20,191 bases of DNA from a virus: the IMG/VR virus record IMGVR_UViG_3300027905_000037, positions 1 through 20,191 of that record; one strand, written 5' to 3'. A model generated the notes under the pieces. That model worked only from the letters and a program-made list of their open reading frames with translations. It had not been told where the DNA came from and did not search any database. A program made the translations under genes and the position numbers. Positions 8,049-17,846 of this stretch are shown piece by piece; the first letter of the stretch is position 1, and the number at the start of each line of letters is the position of its first letter.

Positions 8049-8600
8049 ATGGCTGACATCATGCTCCAAAAACACATCGGCGACTTGATTGATCTCAAGG
8101 CGCTGTCTTCCTCGCTCTCCTGGACCGCCGGTGGCGCTTCGGATAGCGTGACTTGGACCGGGATCTCGATTGATCGCGGCGGTGCTTTCGCGACCGGCGC
8201 GCTGCCGCGCACGCTCGATGCCGCGTTGCTCTTCGACGCAACGCTCGCCTCGGGCAAGTCGCTCTCGGTCTATTGGGACGTGCAGCACTCGCCCGATAAC
8301 TCGACGTGGTCGGACTACGCGACCGAAGCGTCTCAGGTGGTTGCGACGGGACAATCGGGCGGCGGCCGAGCTATTGGCGTCTCGCGCCTTACGCTGAGCT
8401 CGGCGGACGACCCGAACATTGCCTCGGCGACGAACATCCCGGGCCAGACGCCGACGCCCTCGATCAATCTCGGCTCCGCGGCGCGGTATATTCGGCTCAA
8501 TGTAGTGCCGCATCTTGCCAGCACCGGGACGGACACCGGGGTCATCGCCGCGGTCGGCGTCTTCGCCGGCTTCGATATCCTGCAGGCGCCGAGCTCGTAA
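8049..8600 (+). CDS. Putative capsid decoration/cement-like protein
   Basis: A 183-residue protein; GGGAG at 8035-8039 supports the ATG at 8049 over the upstream in-frame ATG at 7998, which lies in the hairpin loop. The sequence is beta-rich: SLSVYWDVQHSPDNSTW looks like the strand-loop-strand seen in phage proteins that read as a measured-value-plus-deviation fold, and ARYIRLNVVPHLASTG resembles the last strands. Placement right after capsid, small size and beta-rich character suggest a head decoration or cement protein, but I do not recognise a specific family. The related-looking gene at 14781 shares the short W-containing strand pattern (AYIQTSLDQGQTWFDI). It is a candidate substrate for the downstream enzymes, by proximity only. 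Confidence 0.55.
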   Translation: MADIMLQKHIGDLIDLKALSSSLSWTAGGASDSVTWTGISIDRGGAFATGALPRTLDAALLFDATLASGKSLSVYWDVQHSPDNSTWSDYATEASQVVATGQSGGGRAIGVSRLTLSSADDPNIASATNIPGQTPTPSINLGSAARYIRLNVVPHLASTGTDTGVIAAVGVFAGFDILQAPSS

Positions 8601-8605
8601 GGCGC

Positions 8606-9808
8606 GTGTCAACCGGCCTCTATGTCCACACGCCCGGCCGCTTGTCGCGGTGGGGCGTCGTGGACGTGGGCCTCAAGTGCGTCCACAAGTGCAAGTTCTG
8701 CTACTACTCGTTCCTTGACGGGTCGCCCGATCAGTTCGCCGGCATGGCGCACGCGAAGTTCCAAGCGGTTGAGCACCTGAACGCACTTGTGGATTCGCTG
8801 GCGCAGAACGGCTTTGTCGGATTTGATGTAACCGGCGGCGAGCCCGCGCTCTCGCCCTCGATTGTCCAGATCGTCAGGCGCGCCGTTGAGCATGGGTTAG
8901 CGGCTCGGATCATCACGCTCGGCCAATACTTAATGCGCGCGATGAGAAGCGCGCCCGGCCATGCTCGGCTGATCGACGGGCTGCTCGAGGCCGGCGTCGC
9001 CGACTTCTTGCTCTCGATTCACGCTGTCGAGCCGGAAGCCTTCGACGCCATCACCGGCGGCTCATGGATCGCGATGCGGAGCGCGATGGAATACCTCGAC
9101 GAAAAAGGTTTCGACTACTGCTCGAACACGACGGTCTTCGAGGACAATTTTCGCTCATTGCCCGCGATCGCGCGCGAGCTCGCCAAGCACCGCGTCTATG
9201 TTGCGAACTTTATCGTGATGAACGCCTACTATGCTTGGGGGCGCCCCGACGCGCCGACGCGGAAGGTTCAAGCGCATTACAGCGAAATCCGGCCTTATCT
9301 TCTGGAGGCTCGCGATCTGCTTGAGGAGGCGGGCATCGCGGTCAATGTCCGCTATGCGCCGCTTTGCACGATGCGAGGGATGGAGCGCAATCTCGTCGGG
9401 ATCGCTGGCGTTCGCCACGACCCCCACGAATGGATGAACGCGATCGACCACATGAGGCCTGGCCCCGGCGCCGAAATGGGCCGCCGCCTCGCGCTCCACG
9501 ATTACCAGATGCAATATAGGCTCGAACCTCCCACCTCTGCCGGCACCGTCGCGCATCGCGCCGACAAGATCTTCCCGAAGAAATGTCGATCATGCCGCGC
9601 GATCTCGATCTGCGACGGCATTGATCGCCGTTATCTGTGCGAATGTGGCACCGACGAACTTGAGCCCTATTCTCAATTCCGCGGTGATCTATTAGATCGC
9701 GAGCGGTTGGCATATCTTCCCGCCTTCGTTGTCAAGACGGCACCCTATGCCGACGCGTGCCGGGCGGTTTCGTCCATGCTGAGAGGTGATCATGTGGTTG
9801 CTTCCTAG
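8606..9808 (+). CDS. Radical SAM enzyme with C-terminal Cys-rich (SPASM-like) tail
   Basis: A 400-residue protein from a GTG at 8606, five bases after the previous stop, with AAGG at 8599-8602; the reading frame open further upstream is a shadow of the previous gene. The [4Fe-4S] motif CVHKCKFC is exactly C-x3-C-x2-C (C25, C29, C32), followed by an aromatic (Y33). The SAM-binding VTGGEPALS motif is at residues 75-83 (GGE 77-79). The C-terminus has C327, C330, C336, C345 and C347 (KKCRSCRAISICDGI, YLCECGTDEL), a likely auxiliary Fe-S or metal site. Such proteins act on peptides, sugars or nucleotides; the substrate here is unknown. The end overlaps the next gene by 17 bp, so the two are translationally coupled. 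Confidence 0.9.
   Translation: MSTGLYVHTPGRLSRWGVVDVGLKCVHKCKFCYYSFLDGSPDQFAGMAHAKFQAVEHLNALVDSLAQNGFVGFDVTGGEPALSPSIVQIVRRAVEHGLAARIITLGQYLMRAMRSAPGHARLIDGLLEAGVADFLLSIHAVEPEAFDAITGGSWIAMRSAMEYLDEKGFDYCSNTTVFEDNFRSLPAIARELAKHRVYVANFIVMNAYYAWGRPDAPTRKVQAHYSEIRPYLLEARDLLEEAGIAVNVRYAPLCTMRGMERNLVGIAGVRHDPHEWMNAIDHMRPGPGAEMGRRLALHDYQMQYRLEPPTSAGTVAHRADKIFPKKCRSCRAISICDGIDRRYLCECGTDELEPYSQFRGDLLDRERLAYLPAFVVKTAPYADACRAVSSMLRGDHVVAS
9782..9791 (+). promoter_or_regulatory. Near-consensus Shine-Dalgarno deciding the GT start
   Basis: AGAGGTGATC directly precedes the ATG at 9792 and closely matches the 16S-complementary consensus AGGAGGTGATC. It lies within the radical SAM coding sequence. It favours ATG 9792 over the in-frame GTG at 9786, which falls within the Shine-Dalgarno itself. 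Confidence 0.6.
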
Positions 9809-11267
9809 CCTAAACCGAGTGGAGAAGCTTCGCCGCTTCTTCGAAGCTTGTCATACGACCGGCGTCTCGACACCCGGGATGGTGCTCATTGACGAAGACG
9901 ACTTTGCCGCAAATCAGGACGATTATCGCCGCATAGTGTTGCCTCTCGGCTGGCATCTGTGCCGCACCATTGGGCGCACGCAAGGCGACAAGATTCGCGA
10001 AGTCTGGGAGGAGATCAAATCCTGCGCTTGGTTCGGCCTGATCGGCGATGACAATATACCGGAGACCCAATTCTGGGACCGGCGCCTCATCGATGCGCTG
10101 GATGATCAGAACCTGATCGTCTCCTGCAATGACGGCTGGCAAGCGCCGAAGCGGCTGGCAAATTGCTGGATCATGTCCGGTGATCTCGTCCGCACGGCGG
10201 GCTATATTTTCGCGCCCGGCATGCACCATCTATTCGTCGATGATATGTGGGAGACGATCGGCCTCGAGGCCTCCTGCTGGCGATGCCTGATGGACGTGGT
10301 GGTCCGGCATAATCACGTGATGATCGGCGAGATCGCCGATGAAACGCATCGGGGCGTCTACGGCGATGGCTTCGCCGCGCAGGCCGGCCCCGACCGGAAA
10401 AAAGGATTGTGGGCCGGCGACGAAAGGGCATTCCAGCAATGGCTTTCGTTTGAGCGCCACAGGATCGTGACCGAGATTAAGCGCAAGCGGCCGGCGCCCG
10501 TCGATGATCCGGAGGCGGCGGTGAAGGCAACGCGCCTCGCGCGCGCCAAGTCTCGCTCGCTGATGATCGCGACGCCAGTGGCGCGTCACCCGTGCTACCA
10601 ATACACGGTTTCGCTCATCGATACCGTTCTGATGCTCGATCGGCTCGGCATCAAGCATTGCTTGCAGATGATCGTCGGTTCTTCGAATTTGCCGCGCGCC
10701 CGCAACGAGCTCTGCGCTCGGTTTCTCGCGTCGCCATGCACCGACCTGATCTTCATCGACGACGACATGGAATGGCGAGCAAACGACGTCGCAAGACTTC
10801 TTGCATCGAACCAACCGATTGCTGGCGGCGTTGGTCGCAAGCGCGTTGATAAGCCGAACACCGACACCGACGTTTGGTGCGGCGAGCCCTATCTCGGGCC
10901 GGACAATGACGTCGTTCAGGACGAGATGGGTTTCGTTCGCTTCCGCAAGGTCGGCACCGGGTTTCTGAAAATCGCGCGCGAGGCCTTCGAGCAAATCATC
11001 GCGGCGCACCCGGAATGGAAGGGCGCCGGCCACAACGACATGCCACAGCAGGCGCGTGACAATTACTACCGCTTCTTCCGCTTCGCCGAGGATGAGCGCG
11101 AGACGGGCGAGGACTTCGCTTTCTGCGCTGCTTGGCATGATTGCGGCGGCGAAATTTGGATTGATCCCGCCACGTACCTCGGCCACGTCGGCGAGCGGGT
11201 TTATAGGGGCTCGATCAGCGAACTAATGACGCCGCGCAACGCGGCACCCAAAGAGGCGGCGGCATAA
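9792..11267 (+). CDS. Tandem GT-A glycosyltransferase-like protein
   Basis: A 491-residue protein that seems to contain two nucleotide-sugar transferase-like units. The N-terminal unit (about 1-225) opens with strand-turn MWLLPSLNR, has VLIDEDDF (31-38), GLIGDDNIP (82-90, a DxD-type metal site), and VDDMWETIG (149-157). The C-terminal unit (about 255-480) has SLMIATPVARHP, SSNLPRARNELCARFL, the strand LIFIDDDMEW with DDD at 323-325, then GEDFAFCAAW (439-448) and GGEIWIDP with LGHVGERVYRG, a pattern I recognise from family-2-like transferases. It may transfer sugar to a protein or surface glycan. Substrate and activity are not shown. It overlaps the radical SAM gene by 17 bp, implying joint expression. 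Confidence 0.8.
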   Translation: MWLLPSLNRVEKLRRFFEACHTTGVSTPGMVLIDEDDFAANQDDYRRIVLPLGWHLCRTIGRTQGDKIREVWEEIKSCAWFGLIGDDNIPETQFWDRRLIDALDDQNLIVSCNDGWQAPKRLANCWIMSGDLVRTAGYIFAPGMHHLFVDDMWETIGLEASCWRCLMDVVVRHNHVMIGEIADETHRGVYGDGFAAQAGPDRKKGLWAGDERAFQQWLSFERHRIVTEIKRKRPAPVDDPEAAVKATRLARAKSRSLMIATPVARHPCYQYTVSLIDTVLMLDRLGIKHCLQMIVGSSNLPRARNELCARFLASPCTDLIFIDDDMEWRANDVARLLASNQPIAGGVGRKRVDKPNTDTDVWCGEPYLGPDNDVVQDEMGFVRFRKVGTGFLKIAREAFEQIIAAHPEWKGAGHNDMPQQARDNYYRFFRFAEDERETGEDFAFCAAWHDCGGEIWIDPATYLGHVGERVYRGSISELMTPRNAAPKEAAA

Positions 11268-11415
11268 GCGGCCGCGCGAGGATTGAACCATGTCAGAGAG
11301 CGCGCGCCTTGTGCCGCATGGCGTCTCCGGCTCGACGCCGATCAACGCCGACGTAACCAATCTCGGTTCGGCCGTTCCAGTGAAAGTGACACTGACGGCG
11401 AACGGAATTATGCAC

Positions 11416-11445
11416 TTGACAAAGTGGCCGCTAGGGATTGATATT
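11416..11445 (+). promoter_or_regulatory. Candidate sigma70-type promoter spanning the left junction of the insert
   Basis: A perfect -35 TTGACA lies at 11416-11421. After 18 bp comes GATATT (11440-11445), four of six matches to the -10; TGATAT with a 17-bp spacer is an alternative. The -35 belongs to the interrupted gene and the -10 to the inserted DNA. The ATG of the membrane protein at 11484 is about 38 bp further on. Confidence 0.4.
11425..11431 (+). repeat. 7-bp direct repeat TGGCCGC, left copy at insertion boundary
   Basis: An identical TGGCCGC occurs at 12322-12328, 897 bp away. Both copies are read in the same phase (TGG CCG C..), so removing the interval restores a continuous ORF. 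This could be a target duplication or a microhomology junction. Confidence 0.55.
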
Positions 11446-11483
11446 TCCCAGGAGCCGCGCGGACTTTCGTCGAGAGCGCTGAA

Positions 11484-12272
11484 ATGCTGGATCAGATCGG
11501 CACATTTCTGCGCCTCGTATGGGCCGAATGGTCCAGTCGCGTGACGGGTTCGCTCAGCGCCTTTCTTGTATTGGCTGGTCTCTGCATCAGCATCGCGGGA
11601 ACTTTTGGGGCTAAGATACCAAGTGAATCGATTTTACAACTTGTGACGTGGGCGCTGGCGGCACTCTTCGGCGCCCAAGCTGCATTCTCTATTTGGGCAC
11701 GGGAGCATCAGGCCAGAATAGAAGTAGAGCGCAAACTTGCAGAAAAAACGACACCGAACTTTACCGTATCATTCGACCAAGAGCGCGGCGGTATCGTGAA
11801 CGCAGTAGATCAAACAAAAATCGAGATGCCAGGAACATATGGGGGAACCATTTTCAGGCCCGGTCCATCATACAATGCGTCGTGCCTGCGTATTCTTATA
11901 AAAACGAAGTCCGATGTACCGGTTAAGAGATGCCAGGCTTTTATTTTGTCTCTGGAAAAACAAGCGCAGCCTGACGAGGCATTTATCTACGTTGAGCTTC
12001 CGCAGCGTATCCCATTGCAGACGGGACCGTTCGAAGTATTACCAAACATTCCTTACCCCGTTGATTTCATGAAGGCCAGCGACCAGAACAATAAGCTTGT
12101 GAGAACCGGAGAATGGCCGAATGTTTTGGCGCGAGCATTCGACGATCTAGCCACATATCGTTTCACTATCGCTGTGAATGGTGATGGCATCACTGCCAAG
12201 CCGATCAAGGTGGACGTAGTGTGGCGTGGACAATGGGACACAATCTCCGCCAGCCAGGTTCACGAAACTTGA
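11484..12272 (+). CDS. Two-TM membrane protein of unknown function, cargo of the insert
   Basis: A 262-residue protein. Two predicted membrane helices are visible: about 22-42 (GSLSAFLVLAGLCISIAGT) and 50-71 (ILQLVTWALAALFGAQAAFS). A short charged helix follows (REHQARIEVERKLAEK), then a soluble, strand-rich domain from about 92 to the end. The N-terminus has Trp and acidic residues (RLVWAEWSS). I recognise no named family. The base composition is lower in GC than in all neighbours, which points to separate acquisition. Only a weak Shine-Dalgarno (GAGAG, 11472-11476) precedes the ATG. Membrane-bound phage cargo proteins of this kind can act in superinfection exclusion or host modification, but nothing in the sequence proves this. 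Confidence 0.75.
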   Translation: MLDQIGTFLRLVWAEWSSRVTGSLSAFLVLAGLCISIAGTFGAKIPSESILQLVTWALAALFGAQAAFSIWAREHQARIEVERKLAEKTTPNFTVSFDQERGGIVNAVDQTKIEMPGTYGGTIFRPGPSYNASCLRILIKTKSDVPVKRCQAFILSLEKQAQPDEAFIYVELPQRIPLQTGPFEVLPNIPYPVDFMKASDQNNKLVRTGEWPNVLARAFDDLATYRFTIAVNGDGITAKPIKVDVVWRGQWDTISASQVHET

Positions 12273-12280
12273 ATTAAATT

Positions 12281-12306
12281 AGGGGCGTAGTGCCTTTCCG
12301 CCCTTT
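12281..12306 (+). terminator. Weak hairpin at the end of the membrane protein gene
   Basis: AGGGGCG (12281-12287) can pair with CGCCCTT (12299-12305), with one G-T wobble and an 11-nt loop, followed by only TTT overlapping the stem end. It lies 8 bp after the stop of the cargo gene, so a weak terminator is plausible. Confidence 0.3.
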
Positions 12307-12321
12307 ACCCACAGATTTCTT

Positions 12322-12328
12322 TGGCCGC
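12322..12328 (+). repeat. 7-bp direct repeat TGGCCGC, right copy at insertion boundary
   Basis: Identical to 11425-11431. See the left copy for the in-phase junction that it defines. Confidence 0.55.
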
Positions 12329-12441
12329 GTTTCACTGGCGCCGCGGGCGGTGAATATCCGCGGACCATTCTCTCAGGAACGGTTCTCTATCTACTCGCCT
12401 ATGAGGCCGCCGCGCTCAAAGCCGCTGGAGGCGCCACGTAA
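12322..12441 (+). pseudogene. 3' half of the interrupted small gene
   Basis: This start-less open stretch reads WPRFTGAAGGEYPRTILSG through AYEAAALKAAGGAT and stops at TAA 12439-12441. The protein-like composition and codon use match the phage genes, not the insert. It is in phase with 11290-11424 when the two TGGCCGC copies are joined, which gives one 84-residue product. The frame stays open leftward only to a TAG at 12280-12282, with no start codon of its own. Confidence 0.6.
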
Positions 12442-12635
12442 TCGGCCCGCACGAGGGCCGGATAACGCCGCCAGCCATTCGCAAAAAGATTGCGGCGAAG
12501 TTGGCCGGGCGGGTATTCTCGGAAGATCGCAAGGCGAATCTCGGAAAACCCAAGTCCCCGGCTGCCAGAGAAAATATGCGAGCTGCCTGGGTCCTTCGCC
12601 GTGCAGCGCGGAACGAACTCAGGAACTCGCCGTGA
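12438..12635 (+). pseudogene. Start-less basic small ORF, NUMOD3-like motif (possible lost GTG start)
   Basis: This frame reads like real coding sequence: an Arg/Lys-rich 65-residue product with AIRKKIAAKLAGRVFSEDRK and then GKPKSPAARENMRAAW, which weakly resembles the NUMOD3 helix-turn motif found in phage nucleases. Its TGA (12633-12635) overlaps the next GTG start (12632). No ATG, GTG or TTG is found near its beginning; the codon at 12438 is GTA, overlapping the previous TAA. A GTG there (overlap GTGA, as elsewhere in this operon) would have been a normal start, so a single G to A change could have removed it. A TTG at 12501 would give only 44 residues. Confidence 0.4.
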
Positions 12636-12859
12636 CCAAACTTGTGCGATTCACGAAACCGATGCGGCCCTTTGGCATCGGAGATCAACGGCTCGTGCCC
12701 GACGATGTTGCGGCGCGACTTGCGGCGGAGGGCGTGATCGAGCCGAACCCGCCGGACTTCCCCGCGAATCCACCGCGTCAGGTGGGCGCCCCAGAGCCGG
12801 CGCGCAAGCCGCACCGCCGGTTCGTCCCTGCGCTCGGCCAAACCTATTTGACGAAATGA
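12632..12859 (+). CDS. Small connector-region protein
   Basis: Starts at a GTG at 12632 with AGGA at 12620-12623 and gives 75 residues; the frame open upstream to 12290 crosses the interrupted gene and the start-less ORF and is not believable. MTKLVRFTKPMRPFGIGDQ is followed by VPDDVAARLAAEGVIEPNPPD and a basic Pro-rich tail ending LGQTYLTK. It matches the general pattern of a small phage protein with an FxKPMRPYxxGD-like start and a degradation-like VxxAxKLxAEG helix that I have seen in head-tail regions, but I cannot name a family. Its TGA overlaps a following ATG (12856-12859). Confidence 0.65.
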   Translation: MTKLVRFTKPMRPFGIGDQRLVPDDVAARLAAEGVIEPNPPDFPANPPRQVGAPEPARKPHRRFVPALGQTYLTK

Positions 12860-17510: not shown

Positions 17511-17846
17511 ATGGCTTCTGAGCCGCAAACGATCATCCTCGGCGAGCGCCGTTTTGAAATCCGCCCCCTCACGCTGGGCCAAGTTCGCAAGATTGACAAA
17601 TATCTTGCGGAGCCGGTTACGAGCAACGTCGACCGCTGCATCGCGATCTTGAAGATTGCTCTCGAAAGAGATCATAAGGACATGAGGGCATTCCTTGATG
17701 ATGAGGAAGGAGAGCTCAGCGTCGCGGAGCTCGCCGAGGCGATGAAGAGGGTCTTGCGTGCCGGCGGTTTCGTCACGGAGGCTCCAAAAAAGCCGGGGGA
17801 AGATCAGGCGGCCGGCCAGATTGGGCATGGATCATTGGCCGCCTAG
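17511..17846 (+). CDS. Tail assembly chaperone G-like protein
   Basis: A 111-residue protein starting MASEPQTIILGERRFEIRP with LTLGQVRKIDKYLAEP, then an acidic helical part (FLDDEEGELSVAELAEAMK) and a short basic/Gly tail. The start FEIRPLTLGQV is typical of phage tail chaperones in which an N-terminal beta strand region precedes helices. It precedes the tape measure gene, as expected. Near its end is the slippery heptamer A AAA AAG in frame (17786-17792). Most ribosomes stay in frame and stop at 17846, while a minor fraction would shift to make the GT fusion that chaperones the tape measure. Confidence 0.8.
   Translation: MASEPQTIILGERRFEIRPLTLGQVRKIDKYLAEPVTSNVDRCIAILKIALERDHKDMRAFLDDEEGELSVAELAEAMKRVLRAGGFVTEAPKKPGEDQAAGQIGHGSLAA
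17786..17792 (+). promoter_or_regulatory. -1 ribosomal frameshift slippery site A AAA AAG
   Basis: The heptamer AAAAAAG lies in the zero frame as ccA AAA AAG (codons at 17784, 17787, 17790). This fits the classical X XXY YYZ rule for a -1 shift, and the -1 frame is open from here to 18058. Confidence 0.85.

Follow-up and report, generated by a model that had tools for sequence, protein, structure and literature searches.

A foreign segment with a predicted membrane-protein gene inside a small accessory gene of a probable phage genome fragment

A small accessory gene in a virus record is interrupted by a segment of foreign DNA. The composition of the segment is alien, conserved residues of the gene are missing at the join, and the slot in which it lies is accessory. 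We consider it quite likely that this segment of ~0.92 kb, which carries a single membrane-protein gene and, probably, a promoter of its own, entered the gene by illegitimate (non-homologous) recombination and replaced 8–12 codons of its target. The stretch of DNA that we analysed (the window) is a complete virus record in IMG/VR of 20,191 bp, which is probably a genome fragment of an uncultivated phage. It contains terminase, portal, protease, capsid, and neck-region genes. No DNA-level match of the region to named phages was found, the best matches of the portal protein to named phages were ~33% identical, and scanning genome contigs with the capsid alignment revealed no relative.

Elsewhere in the window, an HNH endonuclease gene (109–423; PHROG 589, 7e-19) lies directly before the small terminase gene, which is a common arrangement. 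At 8306–11267, the head operon includes a radical SAM gene and, after it, a two-domain glycosyltransferase gene. Among 84 loci searched, the radical SAM protein has strong homologues in L036, L069, and L012, and a weak one in L016; its similarity to viperin models is weak and far under the cut-off.

Two halves of one gene

The pieces that flank the segment are two halves of a single gene. A search with the joined protein led to an intact 84-residue relative in the viral contig L003, between the portal and protease genes, and a capsid-based search provided 80 related viral loci, whose ORFs included further relatives of this 84-aa family. A profile built from 16 related phage proteins, with the window excluded, was matched by the left piece at model positions 1–42 (30.7 bits) and by the right piece at positions 51–90 (41.9 bits). 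The native left part comprises 38 codons, M1–N38 (11290..11403, + strand), beyond which the piece has neither the conserved Tyr nor the loop, whilst the native right part extends from P47 to the stop codon (12325..12441, + strand) in an open frame that lacks ATG, GTG, and TTG. Each half matches the one protein family independently, which places the split far beyond chance.

Support for the idea that the segment was inserted into one gene, as the earlier note had proposed, came both from these complementary matches and from syntenic intact copies. In three related loci (L006, L008, and L138), an intact 84-aa gene lies between the same two genes as in the window, namely, a glycosyltransferase-like gene (GT) upstream and a gene that we call dn75 downstream. 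The phage-like codon use attributed to both pieces was also found (z = −0.95 and −1.62).

The 84-aa family is present in 16 of the 50 viral records searched whole (E ≤ 0.01), including a near-identical sister contig from another metagenome, which contains the right half of the gene only. The family has a predicted fold with a pLDDT of 75, in which the seam region falls within a loop of low confidence, and neither the PDB nor viral models yielded a Foldseek match at E ≤ 0.001. Between 12283 and 12441, the right half of the broken gene offers none of the usual start codons, so that the gene is probably no longer functional.

The position of the 84-aa gene varies: it is found beside the portal gene in L003 (L003:6010-6264), between GT and dn75 in L006, L008, and L138, and, in the record of L036/L091, a long way downstream (L091:4986-5267).

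Where the segment begins and ends

In 16/16 homologues, the distance from a conserved Tyr to a conserved Pro is exactly 13 residues, e.g., YAMLSGPGIPTRP, whereas the joined protein has 9 residues at the same place (GIMHLTKWP), without the Tyr and without the GxPxR loop. Left out of this count were L138 (found later; by eye, also 13), L019 (a weak match of 38 bits, in which the conserved Pro is not clear), a weak copy in G028 (= L109) with its loop unread, and identical or overlapping copies of the same contigs. Given this difference in spacing, the joined 84-residue protein is probably not the ancestor, and the claim that its frame restores the old gene is not supported. The search with the joined protein, which had been proposed as a check, revealed a real family with intact homologues in related phages, but a different seam. 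Based on the short spacing and the missing Tyr and loop, the target would most likely have lost 8–12 codons in the event.

Resemblance to the family extends as far as N38 (base 11403) or slightly beyond (~11415), and restarts at P47 (base 12325). From these limits, and a GC content of 0.509 compared with ~0.61, the likeliest extent of the foreign segment is 11404..12324 (+ strand), or 921 bp, with its left edge placed to within about 20 bp. The left boundary probably lies close to 11404, and weak support for this position came from the 21 bp to the left of the first TGGCCGC copy discussed below, which are 38% GC, a value that is low for the phage (P = 0.024) and fits the insert (P = 0.17).

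The earlier note had placed the ends of the insert at two TGGCCGC copies (11425–11431 and 12322–12328, + strand). Its arithmetic was correct upon recomputation: the copies begin at 11425 and 12322, in phase and 897 bp apart, and when 11424 is joined to 12322, the frame stays open for 45 + 39 codons, from the ATG at 11290 to the TAA at 12441. However, the idea that the copies mark the ends of the insert was not supported. Taken alone, the 7-bp in-phase repeat is weak evidence and near chance; 6.7% of shuffles had an in-phase shared 7-mer within ±30 bp, 13% within ±50 bp, and 53% within ±100 bp. The window contains six copies of TGGCCGC, compared with 3.5 expected.

A clean insertion at TGGCCGC would mean that an 897-bp piece entered a target that was already in the short form, that the repeat is a target-site duplication or a product of microhomology, and that the loop of the intact gene already read ...NGIMHLTKWPRFTG.... 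Such an event would account for a repeat that is exact and in phase, as well as for a joined frame that is open and belongs to the family. We nevertheless regard it as unlikely, given that it requires the prior loss of four codons from a spacing that is invariant in the homologues, that such a repeat is near chance, that the GC content of the 21 bp beside the repeat is unlike that of the phage, and that neither a transposase nor terminal inverted repeats were seen. A target duplication is an improbable source of the TGGCCGC pair, given that the simplest reading is a replacement of 8–12 codons by ~0.92 kb.

The segment, its gene, and its surroundings

As noted previously, the interval has a lower GC content than its flanks (0.51 vs 0.61–0.62) and encodes a protein with two hydrophobic segments. 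The insert ORF (11484..12272, + strand) specifies 262 aa, with two predicted N-terminal membrane helices (~17–47 and 49–72) and a soluble C-terminal region, and its codon use differs greatly from that of seven phage genes (z = −12.2; GC3 0.529). The product of this cargo gene would be expected to sit in the host inner membrane. It has no match in Pfam, PHROG, NCBIfam, PADLOC, or PDB sequences, and none was found in phages, plasmids, or genome contigs at the sensitivity used. When viral contigs were scanned with two partly different peptide sets, the only relative was the sister contig. Similarly, the protein was absent from 49 of the 50 viral records searched whole, the single match being that same contig, and local ORF searches of related loci gave nothing better than E 0.13–0.21. 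A single-sequence structure prediction was unusable (pLDDT 43).

Ahead of the insert ORF is a promoter-like site, TTGACA-18-GATATT (11416..11445, + strand), which matches the consensus at 10 of 12 positions and, with the left edge moved to 11404, therefore lies wholly within foreign DNA. A score of 10/12 was reached by 0.34% of shuffled 80-bp stretches, and the stretch before the window ORF at 17511 also scores 10. This putative promoter may drive expression of the cargo gene, in the manner of a moron. At the 3′ end of the insert, the RNA fold of 12276–12312 (−9.8 kcal/mol) predicts a weak hairpin, GGGGCG/CGCCC followed by TTT (12281..12305, + strand), which is a possible weak terminator and was not flagged by a terminator scan.

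In agreement with the earlier note, there was no transposase within the interval, and no terminal inverted repeats were evident at its ends. A transposon or IS was rejected on these grounds, and given that target codons were apparently lost and not duplicated. The interval contains no integrase either. A mobile intron or homing element, which would be spliced out to leave a functional 84-aa gene, has in its favor that joining the flanks restores the frame and that homing genes are common in phages. It is, however, very improbable, as no Rfam intron was detected at E values up to 2 (there was one unrelated sub-threshold match), the insert ORF matches neither an endonuclease nor any other family, and the spliced product would miss the conserved loop residues. 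The stop codons inside the segment, and a joined product that is four residues short of the invariant spacing, also led us to reject a group I/II intron or an intein.

The sister contig matches 12202–20191 of the window with 13 mismatches in 7990 bp, and ends inside the insert. Since it has no mismatches between 12202 and 13056, the right junction is confirmed by an independent metagenome contig. The left junction is seen in the window assembly alone, as would also be the case if the insert had been joined to the phage in error. We believe that such a chimera is highly unlikely, because halves of the same gene lie on both sides of the insert, the right junction of which is identical in a second metagenome. 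No genome both near-identical and free of the insert was found, and the pre-insertion sequence was deduced from relatives that are ~40–50% identical. The description of the insertion as “recent” holds only loosely, as the sister contig, from a different metagenome, already has the right junction. A comparison of relatives with and without the 0.9-kb segment, which had also been proposed, showed that the gene is intact and uninterrupted in L006, L008, and L138 and that the right junction is common to the sister contig, but the seam is not clean. Finally, the idea that there was no insertion, and that a native gene is flanked by two unrelated small ORFs, is scarcely credible. Although the left ORF, unjoined, stays open to 11544 and is by itself a complete 84-codon ORF, the idea is contradicted by the complementary profile matches of both pieces, and the intact syntenic copies also count against it.

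The region between GT and dn75 is an accessory slot. Its left wall is the two-domain GT gene (9786..11267, + strand; PHROG 14945, 9.6e-22, and 1574, 1.5e-21), which has homologues in many related loci, and its right wall is dn75 (12632..12859, + strand; 75 aa), homologues of which come after the GT gene in related loci. Loci whose GT genes end in the same 300 bases were counted once; both genes are present in 40 distinct related loci, in 23 of which the gap between them is ≤32 bp. It is 136–809 bp in the other 17, three of which contain the 84-aa gene. The broken gene was dispensable in the slot, given that it is missing there from most relatives. The contents of the slot differ: judged by eye, L024 has a zinc-ribbon-like ORF, L069 has a hydrophobic ORF of 54 aa, and an ORF with a low-complexity tail recurs in L015, L023, L046, L063, L067, and L084. 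A minus-strand open frame in the slot of L036 (L036:15181-15420) appears, by eye, to encode a small helix-turn-helix protein.

In the window, 190 bp (12442–12631) separate the broken gene from dn75, compared with essentially none in L006, L008, and L138. An ORF in this interval ends ...FSEDRKANLGKPKSPAARENMRAAW..., and overlaps the start of dn75 as GTGA. By eye, it resembles NUMOD3 modules; this reading is not firm, as the ORF had no match in Pfam or PHROGs.

Comparison with known systems

Defence and exclusion effectors with two membrane helices have an N-terminal helix pair, followed by a soluble domain. The insert protein is alike in its predicted helix pair and soluble domain, which we treat as a lead only, and it differs in having neither a PADLOC match nor recognised partner genes, and it gave no usable fold prediction (pLDDT 43). 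A tentative, and rather doubtful, idea is that the insert encodes a previously undescribed phage-borne membrane protein, with two N-terminal helices, a sensor-like soluble domain, and its own promoter, that would be made in the lysogen or in early infection so as to block rival phages or alter the host envelope, and that the GT–dn75 slot is a cargo hotspot specific to this uncultivated phage group. The variable slot is a place to collect orphan cargo genes of this phage group.

Here, the acquisition of cargo has been caught while the two halves of the disrupted gene can still be read. It also illustrates that a seam read by eye can mislead, since comparison with relatives shifted the boundary and revealed lost target sequence. 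Mosaic exchange in tailed phages by illegitimate recombination (PMC3029335) likewise involves no convincing shared junction sequence and a loss of target sequence; the present case differs in that the exchange lies within a coding region and left a pseudogene.

Morons, according to two sources (PMC3029335, PMC2147016), are segments that one genome has and a related genome lacks, and usually consist of an ORF, a promoter, and a terminator. The insert is likewise a one-gene segment that is absent from related genomes, as it was found in the sister contig only and L006, L008, and L138 are uninterrupted, and its GC content and codon use are unlike those of the surrounding phage genes. It is also oriented forward in the operon, and its promoter-like site (a consensus match) may be a promoter of its own. 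The slot, as with morons, is located between genes that are contiguous in most relatives (23/40), whereas the insert itself does not lie between two genes, but inside a third small gene, which it destroys. In addition, a terminator is usual for morons, whereas that of the insert is weak or doubtful. The best reading is that the insert is moron-like cargo gained by illegitimate recombination, which is a clear case, if an ordinary one of a familiar kind, of the acquisition of cargo genes by phages.
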